From assembly GCA_947451935.1 (NCBI GenBank), contig CANGBH010000007.1, positions 1-63,322 of the forward strand: a stretch of DNA of 63,322 bases, in the 5' to 3' direction. Shown piece after piece: positions 47,026 through 61,901 of the stretch (within the stretch, counting starts at the first letter, position 1; the number at the start of each line of letters is the position of its first letter). Source of the stretch: Chitinophagaceae bacterium. Its GTDB lineage: Bacteria > Bacteroidota > Bacteroidia > Chitinophagales > Chitinophagaceae. The notes beneath the pieces were generated by a model. It was not told the origin of the DNA. It saw nothing but the letters and a program-made list of their open reading frames with translations, and searched no databases. The translations under genes were made by a program, and so were the position numbers.

Positions 47026-47062
47026 ACAAAAAAGCCTCACTATGTAGTGAGGCTTTTTTTGT
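47026..47062. terminator. Two-way terminator of the beta-helix gene and ssrA
   Basis: CAAAAAAGCCTCACTA and TAGTGAGGCTTTTTTTG form a long stem with a 2-base loop. On the minus strand it directly follows the tmRNA 3' end (discriminator A at 47062). Confidence 0.88.
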
Positions 47063-47427
47063 GGAGATGGTGGGATTCGAACCCACGTCCAAACATATTC
47101 GCCGTAAACTTTCTACATGCTTATTTTGGAATTGATTGTCGAAAATGTGCAGGAACCAAACAAACCAACACATTTCGTAGCTGAATAGTCTTAGTCAACT
47201 GTCACAGCCTTCAGTTGAAGCAGCCTCGTTTTTTTTGATTCAGCGGAGTGACTTGGCAAAGGCAGGCCCGTCAATCAGCTATAATGGGTGCGCTAATCTC
47301 TGATTAGGCAGCCATGGCGTAAGTATTCTCGCCATTTGTTGGTTTCGTATTCAGATTAAAGTGCAACATACGCAACGCACTGCATGCTTACCTACAAAGA
47401 TCTACGCTGTCGATACCGGTCATCCCC
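47062..47427 (-). ncRNA. ssrA: Transfer-messenger RNA
   Basis: tmRNA of 366 bases, rescuing stalled ribosomes. The 5' end is GGGGATGACCGGTATCGACA and the 3' end GGGTTCGAATCCCACCATCTCC. The acceptor stem GGGGATG pairs with CATCTCC (one G-U pair). The T-arm has the normal GTTCGAATC loop. CCA is not encoded (genome has ACA). The internal reading frame is GGC GAG AAT ACT TAC GCC ATG GCT GCC TAA, giving the tag GENTYAMAA. The decoding position and the Cytophaga-like YAMAA ending make the call secure. It is one piece, not permuted. ssrA and the beta-helix gene share a terminator. Confidence 0.97.
47304..47333 (-). other. tmRNA tag reading frame (GENTYAMAA)
   Basis: Nine codons plus stop inside the tmRNA. 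With the alanine carried by tmRNA the tag becomes A-GENTYAMAA. The two last alanines are the Clp-protease degron. The sequence follows the A-rich single-stranded region ACCAACAAAT, usual for the resume site. Confidence 0.9.
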
Positions 47428-47591: not shown

Positions 47592-47675
47592 GCCCAGATG
47601 GCGGAATTGGTAGACGCGCTAGACTCAAAATCTGGTTATCGTAAGGTAGTGCAGGTTCGATTCCTGTTCTGGGCA
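47592..47675 (+). tRNA. tRNA-Leu (CAA)
   Basis: An 84-base tRNA with long variable arm. Acceptor GCCCAGA pairs with TCTGGGC. The anticodon loop is CTCAAAA, anticodon CAA (reads UUG). The T-arm is GCAGG TTCGATT CCTG-like. Discriminator A at 47675, CCA not encoded. It is followed by a hairpin at 47679-47706. Confidence 0.97.
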
Positions 47676-48659: not shown

Positions 48660-48876
48660 ACCCAAATTTAGCATATTATCAAATGGATGCCTAATCTTCC
48701 GTAAATAAACAAAAATCAATGAATATTTCCTCTAAACGTACTGAAATAAAGAGGAGTTTCTAAAGCTCCTTCAACAACCTCACCCCTACTATACTTCTAT
48801 AATTAATCTTAAACAGAACGAAAACATTCAGCTCCCAAATAGTATTTTTATATCTCACTATTTCAACACTCATTAT

Positions 48877-50508
48877 ATGAAATATTCCATCATTTTACTC
48901 CTCCTTTGTTCCATAAACTGCTTCAGCCAAGATACACTCACTCAAAAGGATATTAAACACGCTAGTAAACTGATCGACATCTCCTATACAGATAAGGAAA
49001 TAGAAATGATGTATCCAGATCTCAAAGACAACCTAGGTGAATACAAGAAATTACACCAACTAACACTCAATAACTCAGTAGGCATGAGCTTAATTCAAGT
49101 CATTAGCCCAATGCCTACAACCAAACAAAAAGAAATTAAATGGGTATTTAATAAATCTATAAAACGTCCTAACAACATCAATGACATCGCATTCTATTCC
49201 ATCAATCAACTTGGATCATTACTTCGAAACAAATCGATCACCTCAGTTGAATTAACAAAATTCTTTATCCAACGATTGAAAAAGTTCGACGACTCATTAC
49301 ACTGTGTAGTCTCATTAACAGAAGAACTAGCGATGCAACAAGCTAAACAAGCAGATGAATTGTTCAGCAAAGGAATTGATAAAGGTCCACTGCAAGGTAT
49401 CCCCTACGGTCTAAAAGACTTATTCGCTGTCAAGGGAACAAAAACAACTTGGGGTGCTGAACCCTATAAAAATCAATCTATAGAGGAAGATGCTTTTGTC
49501 TATACAAAACTTAAAGAAGCAGGAGCTGTATTGGTTGCGAAATTTACGCTAGGCGCTCTTGCCATGGGAGATTATTGGTTTGGAGGTAGAACAAGAAATC
49601 CATGGAACCTTGAAGAGGGATCAAGCGGTTCATCTGCAGGATCTACATCAGCAACCGTAGCAGGATTAATTCCTTTCGCTATCGGCACCGAAACACATGG
49701 ATCAATTATTTCTCCAAGTCATACCTGCGGTGCAACAGGATTACGTCCAACTTTCGGAAGTGTTAGTCGCTCCGGTGCCATGGCATTGAGTTGGAGCTTA
49801 GATAAAATCGGACCAATATGCCGTTCAGCAGAAGATGCTGCCACTGTTTTCGCATTCATTCACGGCTCAGATGGCCAAGACGGAAGTGCTGTAAATGAAG
49901 CATTCAACTACAGTCCTACAAAAGATATTAAACAACTACGCATTGGATATGCCAAAAACTATTTTGACAAACTAGATTCATCTTCTCAAGAATGGAATGT
50001 GTTGAAGCAATTAAAAAAATTAGGTATCAAACTAGAAGGAATGAATTTTCCAGATACTGAAGTATACCAATATGATATGATTGGAATTGTCATCGGCTCA
50101 GAAGCTGCAGCAGCCTTTGATGAATTTACCAGAACGGACCTAGATGATCAAATGACTAAACAAGAACGATATGATTGGCCGAACTATTTCAGAACAGCTA
50201 GAACAATCCCTGCGGTGGAATACATCAACACAAATAGACACCGTGCATTGCTCATGAAAAACATAAATGATGCGATGAAAAATTTCGATATCATCATAAC
50301 ACCAACATTTGAAGGGAAACAACTCTCCATAACAAACCTAACTGGTCATCCAGCGCTATGCATGCCGATAGGATTAGACAAACAGCAATTACCCAACAGC
50401 ATCACCATGCTCGCAAACTTATACCAAGAAGAAGACCTCTTATTGTTCGGTAAGTTTTTCCAAGATCATACGGATTACGATGACATGCATCCTTCCATGT
50501 TCAAATAA
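48877..50508 (+). CDS. Exported amidase (amidase signature family)
   Basis: A 543-residue protein with signal peptide (MKYSIILLLLCSINCFSQ). The first 100 residues are an N-terminal extension. The amidase signature domain follows with the catalytic Lys in GIPYGLKDLFAV, the cis-Ser in EGSSGSSAGSTSATVAG and the nucleophile Ser in IGTETHGSIISPSHTCG. The triad Ser-cisSer-Lys is complete. Relatives include GatA-like peptide or amide hydrolases, but the export signal makes GatA itself unlikely. Likely a periplasmic amide hydrolase with unknown substrate. Confidence 0.9.
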   Translation: MKYSIILLLLCSINCFSQDTLTQKDIKHASKLIDISYTDKEIEMMYPDLKDNLGEYKKLHQLTLNNSVGMSLIQVISPMPTTKQKEIKWVFNKSIKRPNNINDIAFYSINQLGSLLRNKSITSVELTKFFIQRLKKFDDSLHCVVSLTEELAMQQAKQADELFSKGIDKGPLQGIPYGLKDLFAVKGTKTTWGAEPYKNQSIEEDAFVYTKLKEAGAVLVAKFTLGALAMGDYWFGGRTRNPWNLEEGSSGSSAGSTSATVAGLIPFAIGTETHGSIISPSHTCGATGLRPTFGSVSRSGAMALSWSLDKIGPICRSAEDAATVFAFIHGSDGQDGSAVNEAFNYSPTKDIKQLRIGYAKNYFDKLDSSSQEWNVLKQLKKLGIKLEGMNFPDTEVYQYDMIGIVIGSEAAAAFDEFTRTDLDDQMTKQERYDWPNYFRTARTIPAVEYINTNRHRALLMKNINDAMKNFDIIITPTFEGKQLSITNLTGHPALCMPIGLDKQQLPNSITMLANLYQEEDLLLFGKFFQDHTDYDDMHPSMFK

Positions 50509-53025: not shown

Positions 53026-54165
53026 TTAGAGTATTCCTTTTGTTGTGGGTAATGAATCATTAAATGGGTCTTTTTTGACGGCCATTCGAATTGCTTTGGC
53101 GAAGGCTTTGAATATGGCTTCTATTTTATGATGTTCATTTTCTCCTTTACAGCTGATATTTATATTGGTCTTAGATGCATCAGAAAACGATTTAAAAAAA
53201 TGATATACCATTTCGGTCGGCATGTCTCCAACTTTTTCTCGATTCAATTCTACATCCCAAACAATCCAATTTCTACCCCCAAAATCAATAAGCACCTTTG
53301 CCTCTGCATCATCCATGGGTAATGCAAACCCATAACGCTCCATTCCTCGTTTATCAGATAATGCTAATGCCATCGCTTCTCCTAATGCAATACCTGTATC
53401 TTCAATAGTGTGGTGCTCATCGATGTGTAAATCGCCGTTGACTTTAATCGATAAATCCATATTGCCATGTTTTGCAATCTGTTCCAACATATGATCAAAG
53501 AACCCAAGTCCAGTGCTAATATCAGCCTTACCTTTGCCGTCTACATTCAATTCAATATCGATCTTAGTTTCATTGGTATGCCTAGAATGAACTACTTTTC
53601 GAAGGCCATTCTTTAAAAAATGAAAGATCTCTTCCCAACTGGTTGTTTCCAATGAAAGGTATTTTCTTGTCTCCGGATTAAGCGTATTCACATCAACATA
53701 CCCAACACCTTCATTATTATTCAACCAAATACAGCCAGCCCCAAGATTCTTAGCCAATTCGATATCCGTTACTCGATCGCCAATAACAAATGAACCAGCA
53801 AGGTCATAGTTCGGATTATTTAAATATTTACCCAACATCCCTACTCCAGGTTTACGATTTGGAGAATTATCTTCTGGTAAACTTGGATCGATGTATACTT
53901 CATGAAAATCAATGCCCTCCCCTTTAAATGTATCTACGATCAAATCATGTACGGGTTGAAAATCAGCATAAGGAAACATAGGCAATCCTAATCCATCTTG
54001 ATTGGTAACCATAGCAATTTCGAAATCAAATTCTTTGACAATTCGTGTTAGATATTGAAATACCCCAGGATAAAATTTCAACTTTGCAAAACTATCAATC
54101 TGAAATGTTGGCGGGGCTTCATATATAAGCGTTCCATCCCTGTCAATAAACAATACTTTTTTCAT
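53026..54165 (-). CDS. hisB: Bifunctional histidinol-phosphatase / imidazoleglycerol-phosphate dehydratase
   Basis: A 379-residue fusion. N-terminal HAD phosphatase (about 1-165) has FIDRDGTLIYEAPP and MVTNQDGL, then GSFVIGDRVTDIELAKNLGA. The C-terminal dehydratase (about 185-379) has FFDHMLEQIAKHGN, DEHHTIEDTGIALGEA and NEHHKIEAIFKAFAKAIR. The phosphatase zinc cluster of E. coli HisB (three Cys and one His in ICPHLPADECDCRKP) is replaced by IDPSLPEDNSPNRKP. All four ligands are gone. Last gene before the operon terminator. Both reactions belong to histidine biosynthesis steps 7 and 9. Confidence 0.96.
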   Translation of the reverse strand: MKKVLFIDRDGTLIYEAPPTFQIDSFAKLKFYPGVFQYLTRIVKEFDFEIAMVTNQDGLGLPMFPYADFQPVHDLIVDTFKGEGIDFHEVYIDPSLPEDNSPNRKPGVGMLGKYLNNPNYDLAGSFVIGDRVTDIELAKNLGAGCIWLNNNEGVGYVDVNTLNPETRKYLSLETTSWEEIFHFLKNGLRKVVHSRHTNETKIDIELNVDGKGKADISTGLGFFDHMLEQIAKHGNMDLSIKVNGDLHIDEHHTIEDTGIALGEAMALALSDKRGMERYGFALPMDDAEAKVLIDFGGRNWIVWDVELNREKVGDMPTEMVYHFFKSFSDASKTNINISCKGENEHHKIEAIFKAFAKAIRMAVKKDPFNDSLPTTKGIL

Positions 54166-54212: not shown

Positions 54213-55262
54213 TTATCTAGGACAAGTTGAAATAGCCGAAAGCAACGACTCATTCTCCTTTTCCGTTCCCACTGTAATGCGCAAGCATTCCTCACAAAGC
54301 AATACATTGCTTCGGTCTCTGGCTACAATACCCAAGCCCAATAAATGATGATACATTTTTTTAGCATCACTAAACTGAACCAACAAGAAGTTGGCATCAG
54401 AAGGATATACTTTCTGTACTTGATCTAATTCCATCAAGTCAATCTCTAACTGCTTTCTTGCTTCCACTAAAAAAATAATCATATCATTCACCTGTCCAAT
54501 TTCATCTAAAGCCTCTAACGCCAATGTTTGAACAGGCTGACTAATATTATAAGGAGGCTTAACCTTATTCATATACCCTACAATTTCGGTAGAAGCAAAT
54601 GCCATGCCTAGTCGCAATGCAGCCAAGCCCCATGCCTTACTCAAGGTCTGCATAACAATCAGATTAGGATACTCTTTTAAATCCGAAACAAATGAACGCT
54701 GCCTTGAAAAATTTATATACGCTTCATCAATTACTACAATACCATCAAAATTATTAAGCACCATCTCTATATCAGCTCTGTTCAAGCTATTTCCAGATGG
54801 ATTATTCGGTGAACAAATCCAGATGATTTTAGTATTGATTTCAATAGCCTCTTCCAAAGCAGGTAAGTCCAATTGAAACTCCTTTGTCAACGGAACCCGT
54901 TTCAAATTAACATTATTGATGTTTGCGGATACTTCATACATGCCATATGTAGGGGGACAAATTATGACTTGATCCTGTCCAGGCTCACAAAAACAACGGT
55001 ATATAACATCAATGGCTTCATCGCTACCATGACCAATGAATATATTTTCAACGGGAACTTGTTTGATGCCAGATATTTTTTCTTTTACTTTCAATTGAAA
55101 AGGATCAGGATATCTATTGTACCATTTAAGTGTAGGAGAACCAATGGAGTTCTCGTTGGCATCAAGAAATATGCTAGCCTCACCCTTAAATTCATCTCGT
55201 GCCGTAGAGTATGGCTTAAGCAATTTTATATTTTTTCTTACTATCGAATCAAGATTAAACAT
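54213..55262 (-). CDS. hisC: Histidinol-phosphate aminotransferase
   Basis: A 349-residue PLP enzyme of fold type I. Sequence hallmarks are FLDANENSIGSP, FIGHGSDEAIDVIYRCFCEP and the PLP lysine in MQTLSKAWGLAALRLGM. SPNNPSGN and the NFSRQRSF area match subgroup I-beta. It is between hisD (12 bases) and hisB (47 bases). It transaminates imidazole acetol phosphate. Confidence 0.96.
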   Translation of the reverse strand: MFNLDSIVRKNIKLLKPYSTARDEFKGEASIFLDANENSIGSPTLKWYNRYPDPFQLKVKEKISGIKQVPVENIFIGHGSDEAIDVIYRCFCEPGQDQVIICPPTYGMYEVSANINNVNLKRVPLTKEFQLDLPALEEAIEINTKIIWICSPNNPSGNSLNRADIEMVLNNFDGIVVIDEAYINFSRQRSFVSDLKEYPNLIVMQTLSKAWGLAALRLGMAFASTEIVGYMNKVKPPYNISQPVQTLALEALDEIGQVNDMIIFLVEARKQLEIDLMELDQVQKVYPSDANFLLVQFSDAKKMYHHLLGLGIVARDRSNVLLCEECLRITVGTEKENESLLSAISTCPR

Positions 55263-55274
55263 GTCTACTAGTTC

Positions 55275-56555
55275 TTAATATTTATTGATGCGAATCTTTA
55301 CAGCATTTGCATGTGCATCCAAACCTTCTGCTTCTGCCATGGCTATGATTGTCTTACCGAGTTGCTTAATTCCATCTTCAGTAATGTGTTGAAAAGTAAC
55401 CTTTCGAACAAAACTATCACAACTAACTCCACTATAAGCTCTAGCATACCCATTCGTTGGAAGCGTATGATTTGTTCCACTGGCATAATCGCCTGCGCTC
55501 TCAGGTGTATAATGACCAAGAAAAACAGAGCCTGCATGTTCAACCTGCTCAGCTAAGTCTTGTGCATCATCACAAGCAATGATGAGATGCTCAGATGCAT
55601 AGGCATTTACAACTTCAAGACCCTCTTTAATATCGTTAACAAGGATAGCACGACTATGTGCTAAGGCTTCCATAGCAATATCTTTTCGCTCTAATAATTC
55701 AAGCTGGCGATTAATCGACTCAAGTGTTTTGTCAATGATTACGTTAGAGTTGCTGACTAAAATAACCTGTGAGTCTGGACCATGCTCCGCTTGAGATAAC
55801 AAATCAGCTGCAACAAAATCCGGATTAGCCGTTGAATCTGCCAATACACATACCTCGCTCGGACCAGCAGGCATATCAATCGCAACACCATCCATTTGCA
55901 CTAATTGCTTTGCAGTAGTTACATATTGATTTCCTGGCCCAAAAATTTTATCTACTTTGGAAATTGACTTAGTACCATATGCCATAGCCGCAATCGCTTG
56001 AGCACCTCCACAAAGGTGAATCTCCGTTATGCCTACTAATTTTGCTGCATATAAAATGGCGGGGTGAATAGTTCCTTCTTTTGATGGTGGCGTACACAAA
56101 ACGATCTCTTTACATCCAACAAGTTGTGCTGGGATGCCCAACATCAAAATAGTTGAAAACAAAGGAGCACTTCCGCCTGGTATGTAAAAACCAGCTCGGT
56201 GAATAGGCAATGATTTTCTCCAACAGTATACGCCTGGTGATGTTTCAATACGAGCAGAAACTTCTAGTTGACTGGCATGAAATTTTTTAATATTATCATA
56301 TGCCGATAACATGGCATCTTTAAGCTGTTGAGAAATCAACTTTTCAGCTTGAGCGATTTGTTTCTTCTTAATTAACGATGACTTTATAGGAGTCGAATCA
56401 AATCGTTTCGAGTAACGCCTTAATGCCCTATCCCCGTTTTTCTGAACTTCCGCAATGATTTTACCAACCTGCTTTACAAGCTGCTTATTGTCCATAACAG
56501 GCCTTTTAAGCAATTCTGCTATCTCTTCGGGTGATGGGTAATCAACTCTTTGCAT
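55275..56555 (-). CDS. hisD: Histidinol dehydrogenase
   Basis: A 426-residue NAD- and zinc-dependent enzyme for the last two steps of histidine synthesis. FGPGNQYVTTAKQLVQ, DMPAGPSEVCVLADSTANPD, DLLSQAEHGPDSQVILVS and the C-terminal SGTNHTLPTNGYARAYSGVS are family signatures, and the zinc ligands Gln/His lie in the LLSQAEHG segment. The start ATG has MQRVDYPSPEEIAELLKRP. Second gene of the operon. Confidence 0.97.
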   Translation of the reverse strand: MQRVDYPSPEEIAELLKRPVMDNKQLVKQVGKIIAEVQKNGDRALRRYSKRFDSTPIKSSLIKKKQIAQAEKLISQQLKDAMLSAYDNIKKFHASQLEVSARIETSPGVYCWRKSLPIHRAGFYIPGGSAPLFSTILMLGIPAQLVGCKEIVLCTPPSKEGTIHPAILYAAKLVGITEIHLCGGAQAIAAMAYGTKSISKVDKIFGPGNQYVTTAKQLVQMDGVAIDMPAGPSEVCVLADSTANPDFVAADLLSQAEHGPDSQVILVSNSNVIIDKTLESINRQLELLERKDIAMEALAHSRAILVNDIKEGLEVVNAYASEHLIIACDDAQDLAEQVEHAGSVFLGHYTPESAGDYASGTNHTLPTNGYARAYSGVSCDSFVRKVTFQHITEDGIKQLGKTIIAMAEAEGLDAHANAVKIRINKY

Positions 56556-56567
56556 AACAGGTTCTAT

Positions 56568-57434
56568 TTATAATATCATTTTTTCAATTGGAACAACCAA
56601 GATCCCCTCAGCACCTGCGGTCTTCAATTGTTCTATTTTATCCCAAAACTCTTCTTCACTTAATACGCAATGAACACTACTCCATCCACTTTCTGCTAAG
56701 GGAAGTACTGTTGGACTTCTCATCCCCGGTAATAAAGAAATGATTTTTTGTAATTGATCATTGGGTGCGTTCAAGAGTACATATTTACTTTTATTGGCTC
56801 TCTTTACTGATCTTATCCTAAACAATAATTTTTCAAGAATAGCCATGCGTTCTTGATCTAACTTGCTATTAGAAACCAATACTGCCTGAGAATCTAAAAT
56901 AGTTTCTACTTCTTTCAAGCCATTCATAAATAAGGTGCCTCCACTGCTCACCAAATCAGCTACCACATCAGCTAGGCCAATACCAGGAGCTATTTCCACA
57001 GAACCACTGATTTCATGAATAGAAGCTTCTATTGAATGCTTTTTAAGAAATTCCTTTACCAAGGTGGGATAACTCGTGGCAATTCTCTTTCCATGTAATG
57101 CAGCAACACTTGCATATTCCATATTTTTAGGAACAGCGATAGACAATCTGCATTTGCCAAAACCCAGCGATTCAACCAATTTCACTTTTCTCCCCTTTTC
57201 GCCCAATACATTTTGGCCAACAATACCGATATCGGCCACCCCATCTTCTACGTATTCTGGAATATCATCATCCCTTAAGAAAAAAACCTCCAACGGAAAG
57301 TTCTCAGAAACCGTTTTTAATCGATCCTTCACATTTCTAAGATCAATGCCACATTCTTTCAAGAGTTTTACCGAATCCTCATATAGTCGACCTGATTTCT
57401 GAACCGCTATCCTCAATACTGTCTTATTTTCCAT
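56568..57434 (-). CDS. hisG: ATP phosphoribosyltransferase, long form
   Basis: A 288-residue HisG, the committing step of histidine synthesis. LRIAVQKSGRLYEDSVKLLK and YVEDGVADIGIVGQNVL are the catalytic-domain hallmarks, followed by GIGLADVVADLVSSGGTLFM. The C-terminal 75 residues (ERMAILEKLLFRIRSVKRAN onward) are the ACT-like regulatory domain of long-form HisG, so HisZ is not needed. First gene of hisGDCB, controlled by the leader upstream. Confidence 0.97.
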   Translation of the reverse strand: MENKTVLRIAVQKSGRLYEDSVKLLKECGIDLRNVKDRLKTVSENFPLEVFFLRDDDIPEYVEDGVADIGIVGQNVLGEKGRKVKLVESLGFGKCRLSIAVPKNMEYASVAALHGKRIATSYPTLVKEFLKKHSIEASIHEISGSVEIAPGIGLADVVADLVSSGGTLFMNGLKEVETILDSQAVLVSNSKLDQERMAILEKLLFRIRSVKRANKSKYVLLNAPNDQLQKIISLLPGMRSPTVLPLAESGWSSVHCVLSEEEFWDKIEQLKTAGAEGILVVPIEKMIL

Positions 57435-57455
57435 ATACCTTAAATTGAATAAAAT

Positions 57456-57480
57456 AAAAAAGGCTTACCCTTGGCAAGCC
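57456..57480 (-). terminator. Attenuator terminator upstream of hisG
   Basis: On the minus strand GGCTTGCC-AAG-GGTAAGCC-TTTTTT. The 8-bp stem has one G-U pair. It lies 28 bases after the leader stop codon and before hisG. The loop and 3' arm contain CCAAGG, complementary to CCTTGG just after the leader stop, which allows a competing antiterminator fold. Confidence 0.85.
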
Positions 57481-57507
57481 CGAATTATAGTAACATAACA
57501 CCAAGGC

Positions 57508-57555
57508 CTACCTAGTTTGTAAGAAATGATGATGAATATGTGTATTTGTGATCAT
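57508..57555 (-). CDS. his operon leader peptide (15 residues, 4 His)
   Basis: MITNTHIHHHFLQTR ending in TAG. It has four His codons (CAT), three in a row, at 57526-57540 with one Ile interruption. The codons lie a suitable distance ahead of the CCTTGG element (57501-57506), so a ribosome stalled there leaves it free, whereas one at the stop codon covers it. The consensus promoter ends at 57560 only five bases before the ATG, so the message may be leaderless. The peptide exists only for control, as in classical attenuation. Confidence 0.85.
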   Translation of the reverse strand: MITNTHIHHHFLQTR

Positions 57556-57559
57556 AGCA

Positions 57560-57591
57560 CAAATTTAACCATCAAAAACATTATCGCCAAA
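57560..57591 (-). promoter_or_regulatory. Consensus promoter of the his leader
   Basis: Minus-strand TTTG (57591-57588), 20 bases, TAAATTTG (57567-57560). This is a full match of the Bacteroidota -33/-7 consensus (TTTG N19-21 TAnnTTTG). The start of transcription would fall at or within two bases of the leader ATG at 57555. Confidence 0.75.
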
Positions 57592-57675
57592 AAACCTTCA
57601 TAATTTATCAAATGAGGTTAATTTCGACCCGAATTCTTGTTTTTATTGAATTCCTTTTACTTCAAACAAATGGCC

Positions 57676-59649
57676 ATGATAAAATCTTTTTCCAGATTCG
57701 GGACACAGATAATCCTTCTCATTTTATTGTCTACATCAATGTTAATGGCACAACCAGAAAGATGGCAACAACGTGTAAACTATAAAATGGACGTCAAAGT
57801 TGATGCCATGGCTAACCAATTTTCTGGAAAACAACGATTGGAATACTGGAATAACTCACCAGATACCCTAAAAGTGCTCTACTACCACTTATATTGGAAT
57901 GCATTTCAACCAGGTAGCATGATGGATCAACGCAGTATTGAAATGGGTAAAAAACTGATTCGTGGTCGCGCTGATTGGGATGCTAGAGTTCAAGATAGAA
58001 TTTCCAAATTAACCCCATCTGAAATTGGCTATCAAAATATCCATAATCTAAAGGTTAATGGTATAACACAAAAGACTACCCTATTTGAAACAATTTTAAA
58101 GGTAGACCTTTCAAAACCGATCTTACCTAAAACAAAAGCAACGATAGAACTAGATTTTGAAGCACAAGTACCTGTTCAGGTGAGGAGAAGCGGTCGGAAC
58201 AATGCAGAAGGGGTAACATTTAGTATGGCTCAATGGTATCCTAAATTATGTGAATACGACTATCAAGGATGGCATCCTACACCCTATGTTGCTCGTGAAT
58301 TTTATGGCATTTGGGGTGATTATGAAGTTAATATAACCATCGACAAAAAATATGTCATTGGAGGAACTGGATACCTACAAAATCCACAAGAAATTGGACA
58401 TGGATATGAGAAATTTTCAAGCGTTCCCTTTAAAGAATCATCCGATAAATTGATCACATGGAAATTCAAAGCCCCTAATGTGCATGATTTTGTTTGGGCT
58501 GCAGATCCAAACTATATTCATAATTCAGTAGCTGTAAGAAAAGGATTAGTCTTGCATTCATTTTATAAAATTGATACAGCCTCTCTTACAAAGCAATTCA
58601 ATAATATGTATGCGAAGCCAAAAACCACAGAAAACTTAACCGCATATAATAATAAGGCTGCTAATAACTTAGCATCATTCATTAGTAAATATAAACAAGA
58701 ATGGGATAGTGTGTTAAGCGTTGCTGCAAAAGCATTACCCTTCATTGAAAAAACATTCGGAGAATATCCATACAAACAATATTCATTTATTCAAGGTGGA
58801 GATGGCGGCATGGAATATCCCATGGCTACATTATTAAAAGGAGCTGGCAATGGTGTTGTATTACATGAATGGATGCATACATGGTATCAAATGATCTTGG
58901 CAACCAATGAGTCACTCTACCCATGGATGGATGAAGGCTTCACCAGCTATGCTGAATCCAGGGTCAACAATTGGTTAAATGGTGACGTAGATTCATTCCC
59001 ACATAAATCTTCGTTTGATTCGTATATCATGCTTTCAAAAAGTGAATTGAATGAACCTCTAACTACACACTCAGATCATTATAGTTCCAACACGGCTTAT
59101 AGCATAAACTCCTATTCTAAAGGTGAAGTTTTTCTAGAGCAACTAGGCTATATAGTTGGCGCTTCCACTAGAGATAGTATTTTAATGGATTACTATAATA
59201 CCTGGAAATTCAAACACCCCAATGTAATTGACTTCATTCGCATTGCTGAAAAAAGAAGTGAATTGCAATTAGATTGGTATAAAGATTTCTATGTAAATAC
59301 AAACAAGACAATTGATTATGGAATTGATAGCCTCTGGGATGAAGGTGGTAAAATGAAAATTCGATTAAGAAATGTTGGAACAATGCCAATGCCAGTCGAC
59401 CTTGAATTAACATTTAGAGACGGAAGTAAAGAGCAAGTATATATTCCTCAATACCTCATGTTTGGAAGTAAAGAAAATGAAAATCCTTCTTTGAAACGAA
59501 CTGTTGGAGAACCCTGGAAATGGACTCACCCTACGTATACAATTGAGGTTGATCACAAACTGTTCGACTTAAAACGGATTGAAATAGATCCACTACAAAG
59601 GACAGCAGACATTGAACGAAAGAATAACATGCTTGAATTGAAATGGTAA
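57676..59649 (+). CDS. Secreted M1-family metallopeptidase
   Basis: A 657-residue aminopeptidase-like protein from ATG 57676 (MIKSFSRFGTQIILLILLST), with signal peptide to about residue 26. Starts upstream (57670, or TTG 57637) add hydrophilic residues. The zinc site is VVLHEWMHTWYQ with the second Glu in PWMDEGFTSYAESRV, so HExxH-x18-E is intact. The exopeptidase motif GAMEN is replaced by the close GGMEYPM. N-terminal beta domain contains RLEYWNNSPDTLKVLYYHLY. Likely periplasmic or surface aminopeptidase. A partly matching TAATTTCG box lies about 54 bases before the ATG. Confidence 0.94.
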   Translation: MIKSFSRFGTQIILLILLSTSMLMAQPERWQQRVNYKMDVKVDAMANQFSGKQRLEYWNNSPDTLKVLYYHLYWNAFQPGSMMDQRSIEMGKKLIRGRADWDARVQDRISKLTPSEIGYQNIHNLKVNGITQKTTLFETILKVDLSKPILPKTKATIELDFEAQVPVQVRRSGRNNAEGVTFSMAQWYPKLCEYDYQGWHPTPYVAREFYGIWGDYEVNITIDKKYVIGGTGYLQNPQEIGHGYEKFSSVPFKESSDKLITWKFKAPNVHDFVWAADPNYIHNSVAVRKGLVLHSFYKIDTASLTKQFNNMYAKPKTTENLTAYNNKAANNLASFISKYKQEWDSVLSVAAKALPFIEKTFGEYPYKQYSFIQGGDGGMEYPMATLLKGAGNGVVLHEWMHTWYQMILATNESLYPWMDEGFTSYAESRVNNWLNGDVDSFPHKSSFDSYIMLSKSELNEPLTTHSDHYSSNTAYSINSYSKGEVFLEQLGYIVGASTRDSILMDYYNTWKFKHPNVIDFIRIAEKRSELQLDWYKDFYVNTNKTIDYGIDSLWDEGGKMKIRLRNVGTMPMPVDLELTFRDGSKEQVYIPQYLMFGSKENENPSLKRTVGEPWKWTHPTYTIEVDHKLFDLKRIEIDPLQRTADIERKNNMLELKW

Positions 59650-59663
59650 ATTGCCGCAGGGCC

Positions 59664-61901
59664 TTACCCTTCAAATCCAGTGAATTTGATCTTTAGGTTC
59701 TCAAATAACTCTACCAGTTGTGCATATAATAATTGCAGTTCAGCTTCTGTTTTAACAATACTATCATCCTCAATTTCTTTCATTAATGCATCATACCCAT
59801 TAATGCCAATAGATTTAATCATTACTTTCTCGCGATGGACGATTCGCTTTGCTCTAACCCAATCTTTAGATAATAAAGATTCTTTCCAACCTACTAGTGC
59901 ATATTCAATTTCCTCCAATAAGTATTCAAGCATTCTAGAAAATTGAGCAGGATCTTTTCCTGCCATTTCGAAAATACTCGATACAATCCGCTTATGAATT
60001 GAATTATAGTACTTGTCTTTTACAGAACCATGATCAAAGAAATCACATAGCCGATGTTGTAACGTCTTTTGATCTATAGGCTTGGTAATGCAATCAGAAA
60101 ACCCAAGATTTAAAATATGATTCACTTCAGACTTAAATGCTGATGCCGTTAGTGCGATAACGGGTATGGTATCTCCATATTTTTTTTTGATGGCTACCAA
60201 TGCTTCTGTTCCATCCATAACAGGCATTTGTATATCCATTAAAATGAGATCATATTTAGCATCTTCAATTTTAATTAAGGCTTCTGCACCATTAACAGCT
60301 TCATCAACAATAACTGCTAGATTGGTGAGCATCATTTTGAAAACGAACCGATTAAGTTCATTATCCTCAACCAATAAAATATGTTTTCCTTGAATTAAAG
60401 TACAATCGTCGTATGTTGATTTTTGAGTCAACAATGCCTCTGTCGCTACTTGTTCAAATGGAATAGAAACAATTACTTTAGTTCCCAATCCTTTGATACT
60501 CTCAATATTGATTTCGCCTCCCAAAAGATTAACTATTCGCTTAGTAATAGCCAATCCCAATCCTGTTCCCGTTTTCTTATGGTGACTTTTTGAGTTATGC
60601 TCCTGATAAAATTCTTCAAAAATATGCTTAATGGAATCTTCAGAAATACCTATTCCAGAATCTTCACAGATGAATTGAACTACCTGCTTATGTTCATCGG
60701 TACTCTTTAATTTAATCGTAAGTTTTACATACCCTTTATCTGTATAGGTGATAGCGTTCCCTATAATATTTATCAAAATTTGTCGAATACGTACTTCATC
60801 AGAATAAAGATGGGCATTAATTATGGGATCATACTCCGTAATCATCTGAATACCTTTTTCCTTAGCCTTAGGATTTAAAATATTTTCAACACTTAGTTTA
60901 ATCTGCTCAAGATTTATGACTTCTTTTTCAATCGTCATTTTGCCAGCCTCAATTTTAGATAGATCAAGTATGTCGTTTATAATACCTAACAAGTTTTTAG
61001 CAGAATCTGTGATGTTTTTTACAAAAAAAACTTGTTGCTCAGATAATGGGGTGAATGATAGCTGTTCAGAAAGTCCCAGAATAGCATTCATTGGTGTTCG
61101 GATCTCATGACTCATGTTGGATAAAAAGCCAGATTTGGCCTTTTCCGATTCCATTGCCCTATTCCTAGCCTCCACTAGACTCATCTGCAATTGCCTTGTT
61201 TGAGTAATATCGGCACAACTCCAAAGCTGTCCTTTAAATGATCCATTGATATAAATGGGTACATAATCGCGAGATAGTAATCGTCCGTCGGAGAAGTAAA
61301 CTTCATCCCCTAATATTGAATCTTTTTCACCTAGTTTTTGATAAAAATGCAACCCTTGTTCTGCTTGCTTAAACAAATAGCTTGAATCAGAAATTCGTTT
61401 AATAAAATCTGCACCAATTAAATTCTCAGGTTCAACTACAATATTAAAAATTGTACAAAATTGTTTGTTAACAAAAATGATGGTACGATTTTCATCTTCC
61501 AACAAAATCCCCTTACCAAGGTTATCCATCAAATAAGCTATTCGAGAAGAATTAAGCTGAAATGGATGCTGCTGACAAATACAAATGAGGTTATCGTCTG
61601 GTATTTTAGTCAGCGATATATGTTTCCGTATTGTCTTTTCTTCCCTAGTGAGCAGAATGGCCTCTCCCGTCCAACTGCCTTTTTCCAAAACAAGTGGTAG
61701 TATATTATTTTGAAGTTGTTCTGCGTATTCTGGAGAAAATGTGGTTGTCCAGGGCTTGCCAAGGATCTCATCAGGACGTTCATGCCCTAGAAACAAGGTA
61801 TATGGCTCATTTAAATAATAATATTTGCCTTGTTTATTGATCAAGGCAACGCCATCGATGTATAATTCCTCGTTATTGTTGATTAGGTTGGTGTTTAACA
61901 T
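59664..61901 (-). CDS. Hybrid sensor histidine kinase with PAS, receiver and Hpt-like end
   Basis: A 745-residue soluble protein. Two PAS-like domains come first (about 12-105 and 120-235, second ending GQLWSCADITQTRQ). The HisKA phospho-acceptor is His265 in SNMSHEIRTPMNAIL. The ATPase domain has N382 (NIIGNAITYT), EDSGIGIS and GTGLGLAITKR. The receiver domain (505-625) has phospho-acceptor Asp556 in LILMDIQMPVMDG. The C-terminal helical domain has KRIVHREKVMIKSIG with His689, as in Bacteroidota Hpt domains. No transmembrane helix is seen, so it senses a cytoplasmic signal. The neighbouring AraC gene is on the same strand upstream. Confidence 0.93.
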   Translation of the reverse strand: MLNTNLINNNEELYIDGVALINKQGKYYYLNEPYTLFLGHERPDEILGKPWTTTFSPEYAEQLQNNILPLVLEKGSWTGEAILLTREEKTIRKHISLTKIPDDNLICICQQHPFQLNSSRIAYLMDNLGKGILLEDENRTIIFVNKQFCTIFNIVVEPENLIGADFIKRISDSSYLFKQAEQGLHFYQKLGEKDSILGDEVYFSDGRLLSRDYVPIYINGSFKGQLWSCADITQTRQLQMSLVEARNRAMESEKAKSGFLSNMSHEIRTPMNAILGLSEQLSFTPLSEQQVFFVKNITDSAKNLLGIINDILDLSKIEAGKMTIEKEVINLEQIKLSVENILNPKAKEKGIQMITEYDPIINAHLYSDEVRIRQILINIIGNAITYTDKGYVKLTIKLKSTDEHKQVVQFICEDSGIGISEDSIKHIFEEFYQEHNSKSHHKKTGTGLGLAITKRIVNLLGGEINIESIKGLGTKVIVSIPFEQVATEALLTQKSTYDDCTLIQGKHILLVEDNELNRFVFKMMLTNLAVIVDEAVNGAEALIKIEDAKYDLILMDIQMPVMDGTEALVAIKKKYGDTIPVIALTASAFKSEVNHILNLGFSDCITKPIDQKTLQHRLCDFFDHGSVKDKYYNSIHKRIVSSIFEMAGKDPAQFSRMLEYLLEEIEYALVGWKESLLSKDWVRAKRIVHREKVMIKSIGINGYDALMKEIEDDSIVKTEAELQLLYAQLVELFENLKIKFTGFEG

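Follow-up and report, generated by a model that had tools for sequence, protein, structure and literature searches.

We are highly confident that the hisGDCB operon in the window (the whole 63,322-nucleotide stretch of Chitinophagaceae DNA analysed here) is controlled by a ribosome-mediated transcription attenuator, whose RNA would start at, or about one base from, the AUG of a leader ORF. A run of cognate codons lies in a short ORF just before the biosynthetic operon, an intrinsic terminator stands between this leader and hisG, and an antiterminator can form that is exclusive with the terminator. Histidine attenuation, as proposed in the first-pass annotation, has good support from conservation, covariation and folding, and comparison of related sequences indicates that it is very probably a classical switch recurring across Chitinophagaceae. 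We thus regard the attenuator as real, well conserved and of the classical kind, with antiterminator arms that had to be corrected and with a likely leaderless start that other genes of the genome share.

A His-rich leader ORF before hisG

The genes hisG, hisD, hisC and a bifunctional hisB were identified by NCBIfam and follow one another in this order on the minus strand (Table 1). Reading along that strand, TTTG is followed by 20 nt, TAAATTTG, TGCT, the leader ORF, 26 nt, GGGCTTGCC-AAG-GGTAAGCCT with a T-run, and hisG at 57434. Direct reading confirmed the 15-residue ORF (ATG ATC ACA AAT ACA CAT ATT CAT CAT CAT TTC TTA CAA ACT AGG TAG) and stop codon seen in the first pass, with four His codons, three of them consecutive. 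A longer ORF is excluded by an in-frame TAA inside the promoter box, so the earliest ATG available is at 57555. A comparable His-rich ATG ORF arose in only 32 of 5000 dinucleotide shuffles of the window's 300-nt upstream stretch.

Table 1. Features of the hisG leader and operon in the window
Feature	Position	Strand	Basis or remark
hisG, first gene of the operon	56568-57434	-	TIGR00070
hisD	55275-56555	-	TIGR00069
hisC	54213-55262	-	TIGR01141
hisB (bifunctional)	53026-54165	-	NF003937
-33 element TTTG, 20 nt before -7 box	57588-57591	-	direct reading
-7 box TAAATTTG (TAnnTTTG)	57560-57567	-	direct reading; motif scan
Predicted transcription start, A of leader ATG	57555	-	fifth base after box; prediction
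Leader ORF MITNTHIHHHFLQTR*	57508-57555	-	His codons 57540-57538 and 57534-57526; stop TAG 57510-57508
Segment 1, CTTAC, directly after last His codon	57519-57523	-	pairs with segment 2, -2.0 kcal/mol in window
Segment 2, GGTAGGCC, antiterminator 5′ arm, includes stop TAG	57505-57512	-	conservation, covariation, folding
CCTTGG, antiterminator segment of first-pass annotation	57501-57506	-	pairing with CCAAGG not conserved
Small hairpin within antiterminator (UGGUG / UACUA)	57488-57503	-	folding, window alone
Segment 3, GGGCTTGCC, terminator 5′ arm and antiterminator 3′ arm	57473-57481	-	scan, covariation
Terminator loop AAG	57470-57472	-	direct reading
Segment 4, GGTAAGCCT, terminator 3′ arm, near copy of segment 2	57461-57469	-	scan, covariation
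Terminator T-run	57456-57461	-	terminator scan, direct reading

We compared the upstream regions of hisG within the family, where the gene is present in 93 of 117 genomes. Ninety of these 93 entered the comparison (30 search loci and 60 fetched), leaving out G098, G032 and G024 (a second genome of its genus, a missing N-terminus and a fragment, respectively), and near relatives were added as the best 80 of 572 matches. The resulting 170 loci, less 3 with a short upstream region and 11 duplicates, gave 156 distinct upstream regions, near-duplicates being retained. A His-rich ATG ORF (8-35 aa, lying within 300 nt upstream, with at least three His in seven residues) was found in 145 of the 156, in contrast to 56 of 3120 dinucleotide shuffles; the ORF is thus kept before hisG in relatives, which is the outcome sought by an alignment check named in the first pass. 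With at least three His in seven residues in any frame the count was 150, of which 147 were credible after removal of three spurious loci (L004, L039 and L051), so that 9 of the 156 family regions had no credible leader (6 without a His cluster, 3 spurious). Model R1 of the element gave a single low-E match in the window's own genome, at the hisG site (2.1e-12; next 0.05).

Outside the family we sampled 82 genomes of 25 families (22 search loci and 60 hand-picked, from 252 matches in 296 genomes), a set that hardly covers a very divergent HisG group. By a loose rule without shuffled control, a His cluster preceded hisG in 70 of the 82, and 47 of these 70 also had a terminator. In families f3, f21 and f23 (15 genomes) the His ORF was present with no intrinsic terminator by the rule used, so another control may act there. 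The His-rich ORFs of these families stop 74-133 nt short of the hisG match; the loci are L223-L226 in f3, L247 and L253 in f21, and L238, L243-L246, L249, L251, L252 and L255 in f23.

Promoter box and predicted start

The promoter reported in the first pass, TTTG-N20-TAAATTTG, was found on the minus strand as described (57591-57588, 20 nt, 57567-57560). Among 127 scored family leaders, TTTG occurs at a spacer of 17-22 in 98. Taken by itself, TAnnTTTG shows no enrichment in the window (77 versus 85 expected), and on the minus strand from 57560 to 60617 the box at 57560 is the only one. Elsewhere in the window, TAnnTTTG boxes lie 12 nt upstream of the tmRNA (47059-47427, minus strand) and 10 nt upstream of a tRNA gene (47592-47675, plus strand).

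We counted the bases between box and ATG (d, where d = 4 corresponds to an ATG at +1) on 127 of the 150 leaders, 20 others having no strict TAnnTTTG (several have TAnnTTCG) and 3 having the box but no ATG. The spacing was 4 in 34 leaders, 5 in 8, 6-10 in 54, 11-20 in 28 and more in 3; no other single class is as large as d = 4, and none of the 127 has a shorter spacing. The TAnnTTTG box occupies -12 to -5 in F. psychrophilum, with its G at -5 (PMC9723704, in excerpt), and the G is also at -5 in the probable promoters of F. johnsoniae, a set selected for spacings of 4 or 5 nt (PMC6847099, in excerpt). Taken with this mapped position, the counts would place the start codon at +1 to +7 in 96 of the 127 leaders (about three quarters), and at +1 in the window's clade. 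Indeed, on a quick hisG tree of the 76 leaders with a full hisG, d = 4 was found in all 12 rows of that clade (support 99); the d = 4 state required at least 10 changes on this tree, a fewest-changes count without shuffled control and with two long branches flagged.

The leader of the window is therefore likely to be leaderless, with its ATG at the predicted +1. The leaderless start suggested in the first pass is supported in its spacing (d = 4, box at -12 to -5), the start itself remaining a prediction from that spacing. The alternative that survives best keeps the attenuator and gives the leader a short 5′ UTR, so that its translation would not be leaderless; we consider this improbable, though well short of negligible. 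In its favour, the ATG is at least 6 nt from the box in 85 of the 127 family leaders, leaders longer than 10 nt occur in 87% of the F. johnsoniae transcripts that have a probable promoter (PMC6847099, in excerpt), and leaderless mRNAs amount to just 5.5% in F. psychrophilum (PMC9723704, in excerpt). However, the box position in the two mapped data sets (the second with its 4 or 5 nt choice) puts an ATG with d = 4 at +1, this spacing is the commonest with none closer and is also a mode for ordinary gene starts of the same genome, and no further box lies upstream on this strand as far as 60617.

These ordinary starts were examined in 863 kb of the window's genome, G000 (the window and loci L258-L277 and L399-L418). 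Of 530 boxes outside long ORFs, 112 had a long ORF starting 0-59 nt further on, with 18 starts at d = 4, 4 at d = 3 and 5 at d = 5; two control motifs gave 1 and 0 at d = 4. We thus rejected the idea that leaderless spacing is a speciality of the attenuator, as d = 4 is also a mode for ordinary genes (18/112). The peak suggests that this small genome has many leaderless mRNAs. The pattern TANNTTTGNNNNATG occurs 64 times in the whole genome versus 38 for the same pattern read backwards, and 17 of its 30 matches returned as loci open ORFs of at least 80 aa. In contrast to G000, no clear peak was seen in G083 of the same family (2/42 starts at d = 4) or in G215 of another family (3/61 at d = 4, 4 at d = 5), so on these three genomes the trait seems to vary. 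Published figures elsewhere in the phylum are low and include 3.7% of B. thetaiotaomicron transcripts with a 5′ UTR under 10 nt (PMC7366714, in excerpt) and leaderless genes in 1 of 37 Bacteroidetes/Chlorobi genomes, the latter from a study restricted to Pribnow-like boxes (PMC3160421, in excerpt).

Terminator and antiterminator arms

The terminator (stem 57481-57461, T-run to 57456) was the sole site returned by a scan of 57400-57700, where shuffles average 0.2. Scan and direct reading agree with the first-pass annotation that the complement CCAAGG lies in it, covering the loop and the adjoining ends of both arms. Conservation was measured on alignment A1, for which the 147 leaders were thinned to 107 and a further 35 dropped by hand, mostly leaders with the arm away from the stop, leaving 72 rows. 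As this hand choice favours the structure, the same counts were also made on the full sets of 107 and 147. In the terminator helix 3:4, 99.0% of cells are paired on the 72 rows with 24 two-sided changes, 98.5% with 34 on 107, and 99.1% with 42 on 147; none of 500 shuffles reached these values. By a loose rule, a hairpin with a T-run was returned for 147 of the 147 leaders.

The stretch from the His codons to the terminator was searched for segments that can pair with the terminator 5′ arm. The conserved arm, commonly GGTARGCC, nearly repeats the terminator 3′ arm and in the window has the stop codon inside it; the conserved antiterminator thus pairs GGTAGGCC (57512-57505) with GGCTTGCC (57480-57473). 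Over the 147 leaders the best such segment had a median score of 19.6 versus 12.6 for shuffled sequences, 1.9% of shuffles reaching it, and the lowest score was 12 (L124). The finders of arm and terminator always return a best candidate, so the evidence lies in these scores and not in the bare 147/147. The arm overlaps the stop codon in 102 of the 147 and otherwise lies within the last codons or just past the stop. In some clades, segment 2 precedes the stop by about 12-31 nt and falls within longer leaders that end, for example, in QGML or DGIM (L062, L076, L079, L134, L144, L148, L158, L160 and others); the stop codon is therefore not always within the arm.

Helix 2:3 keeps all 8 pairs in 51 of the 72 rows and at least 7 in 71, with 96.5% of cells paired and 9 two-sided changes, neither value being reached by any of 500 shuffles. 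Column by column, two-sided changes fall at 2 of the 8 pairs (345/500 shuffles reach this) with 10 further pair types (67/500), indicating that the arms are preserved mostly as sequence and that column-wise covariation in this helix is not unusual relative to shuffles. Paired cells and two-sided changes stood at 96.0% and 14 on 107 leaders, and at 95.5% and 17 on all 147, again with 0/500 shuffles reaching either. Other families have the same layout in different letters, such as TCAAGCG with CGTTTGA in f5, and the arm score in the 47 leaders outside the family had a median of 18.4 versus 12.0, with 3.5% of shuffles reaching it.

A different antiterminator, CCTTGG paired with CCAAGG, had been proposed in the first pass. 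CCTTGG is indeed present after the stop codon, one base beyond it and not two as stated, and the two segments are able to pair (-6.7 kcal/mol). The helix is, however, complete in only 1 of the 72 aligned rows and 2 of the 147 leaders, and its pairing does not exceed that of shuffles: 55.2% of its cells are paired on 72 rows (390/500 shuffles reach this), 50.8% on 107 (287/500) and 50.0% on 147 (270/500), and a search for such a helix without alignment gave a median equal to that of shuffles. It is also weaker than helix 2:3 and exclusive with it. Its rarity and shuffle-level pairing refute it as a conserved device, and that it is the antiterminator is very unlikely.

Helix 2:3 and the terminator together behaved as a switch when the window RNA was folded. 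With their inner hairpin, segments 2:3 give -16.3 kcal/mol and 3:4 gives -12.7 kcal/mol. We masked the first 29, 41 or 59 nt, assuming that a ribosome shields 11 nt beyond the A-site codon. With nt 1-29 or 1-41 blocked (a stall on the first or last His codon) the antiterminator 2:3 formed, and with nt 1-59 blocked (a ribosome at the stop), or with the full naked RNA, the terminator formed. Folding, a check put forward in the first pass, thus reproduced the antiterminator/terminator switch. The last His codon precedes segment 2 by 10-16 nt in 127 of the 147 leaders, which is roughly as far as a ribosome extends past its A site.

Just past the last His codon, 96 of the 147 leaders carry CTTRC, complementary to segment 2. 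It is read in frames 2, 1 and 0 in 58, 30 and 8 leaders, encoding Leu-Pro, or Thr-Tyr / Thr-Cys, which suggests that the RNA is kept and not the peptide. Family-wide, hairpin 1:2 scored 13.8 versus 9.0 in shuffles, a moderate excess (6.7% of shuffles reach the median); in the window it amounts to only -2.0 kcal/mol. Naked RNA cut just past segment 3 folded as 2:3 and hairpin 1:2 is weak, so the state without a ribosome is unsure in the window's species.

From these computed parts, their conservation, covariation and energies, we infer a transcript start, leaderless initiation and a histidine response as follows. RNA polymerase would start at, or within about one base of, the leader AUG, and a ribosome would load at the 5′ end of the message. 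When charged His-tRNA is scarce, the ribosome would halt on the His codons and cover segment 1, leaving segment 2 free to pair with segment 3, so that no terminator forms and the operon is read. With ample His-tRNA it would reach the stop codon and occupy segment 2, and the terminator 3:4 could then fold. If no ribosome is present, the expected helices are 1:2, weak in the window, and 3:4.

An action mainly of another kind, on hisG translation or in trans as a small RNA or peptide, has a precedent in the trpL RNA and peptide of S. meliloti, which act in trans (PMC7298713, in excerpt), but is hardly probable here given the hairpin with a T-run in every leader (by the loose rule) and the covariation of segment 2 with its 5′ arm; an additional role of this sort may exist. 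Least probable of all, and rejected, is control of hisG by a T-box or other riboswitch with an incidental short ORF: T-boxes do control his genes in Firmicutes and Actinobacteria (PMC9413887, in excerpt), but neither the window nor 15 related loci had an Rfam match at the gathering threshold, E values up to 10 gave no T-box and only unrelated sub-threshold families, and the His run recurs in 145/156 upstream regions.

Other leaders and known attenuators

A Phe/Tyr-rich leader, MNMPKTARFYFYYYFTGSTGSLC, was observed before prephenate dehydratase in the window's genome (G000:C4, about 48789-49019, minus strand; loci L340 and L477). It has d = 4 and a terminator downstream, and a like leader stands at d = 3 to 6 in 14 of 17 loci, its own included. 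In an analysis without shuffled control, complementarity to the terminator was located where the Phe/Tyr run ends or beyond it, and the leader may sense both Phe and Tyr. No such leader was found before trpE, ilvB, ilvD or homoserine dehydrogenase in flanks of at most 1.5 kb in the same genome, in a scan that covered the first trpE match, the first homoserine dehydrogenase match, ilvD and, by the stricter rule only, ilvB. In a relative (G414, locus L353), a branched-chain-rich ORF, MQPGNNITVLNKLTAIIIVVVVIIIPVSLGGGV, lies about 1.1 kb before the ilvD match and is followed by a terminator; by the same scan, a leader like it is absent before ilvD in the window's genome.

Enterobacterial hisL (RF00514) resembles the window's element in its leader peptide with His codons, its terminator before hisG, its exclusive antiterminator and its sensing by ribosome position. 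The hisL attenuator is longer and multi-arm, whereas the window has one four-segment switch with near-repeated arms and the stop codon within the antiterminator arm. The window also differs in apparently having no 5′ UTR, and thus no room for a Shine-Dalgarno sequence. RF00514 itself has no match in the window, whether the gathering threshold or a limit of E 10 is applied.

A leaderless attenuator is already in print for trpL of Sinorhizobium meliloti, where the 5′ end of the transcript is known experimentally to be the ATG of the leader ORF (PMC7298713, in excerpt); it is like the start predicted in the window and differs in sensing tryptophan, in belonging to Alphaproteobacteria and in its experimental 5′ end. 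The ilvBNC leader peptide of Corynebacterium glutamicum is formed without a ribosome binding site, according to the title of Morbach 2000 (cited in PMC4046766, in excerpt), and differs from the window in concerning branched-chain amino acids and Actinobacteria. In F. psychrophilum, clues to leader peptides were described before amino-acid operons, together with a hisG 5′ element that other Flavobacteriaceae genera share (PMC9723704, in excerpt). As far as that excerpt goes, which gives no arms or start spacing, the element is like ours in being structured, from Bacteroidota and without an Rfam hit. Our literature search, with most subscription journals outside it, found no description of the Chitinophagaceae His element; the terms leaderless and Chitinophagaceae gave none, and leaderless leader or attenuator gave only trpL of S. 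meliloti. On the strength of the F. psychrophilum work, attenuation in Bacteroidota is partly in print already. Vitreschak is said to have mentioned attenuators in Bacteroidetes/Chlorobi in 2004.

We tentatively suggest, as a possibility that goes beyond the attenuator itself, that leaderless initiation is a major mode in the window's Chitinophagaceae lineage, unlike the few percent published for other Bacteroidota, and that the His and Phe/Tyr attenuators use it by design. A ribosome would join the 5′ AUG as it leaves RNA polymerase, synchronising translation of the leader with transcription of the very short attenuator (about 95-100 nt) from the first nucleotide.

The element is a compact His attenuator, with parts pinned by more than 100 relatives, in a phylum where we found such leaders only briefly mentioned in searchable papers. 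If its start maps as predicted, a bare 5′ AUG would suffice to time ribosome and polymerase in bacteria without Shine-Dalgarno sites. It also points to a lineage of Bacteroidota in which leaderless mRNAs may exceed the published 5.5% (F. psychrophilum) or 3.7% (B. thetaiotaomicron).
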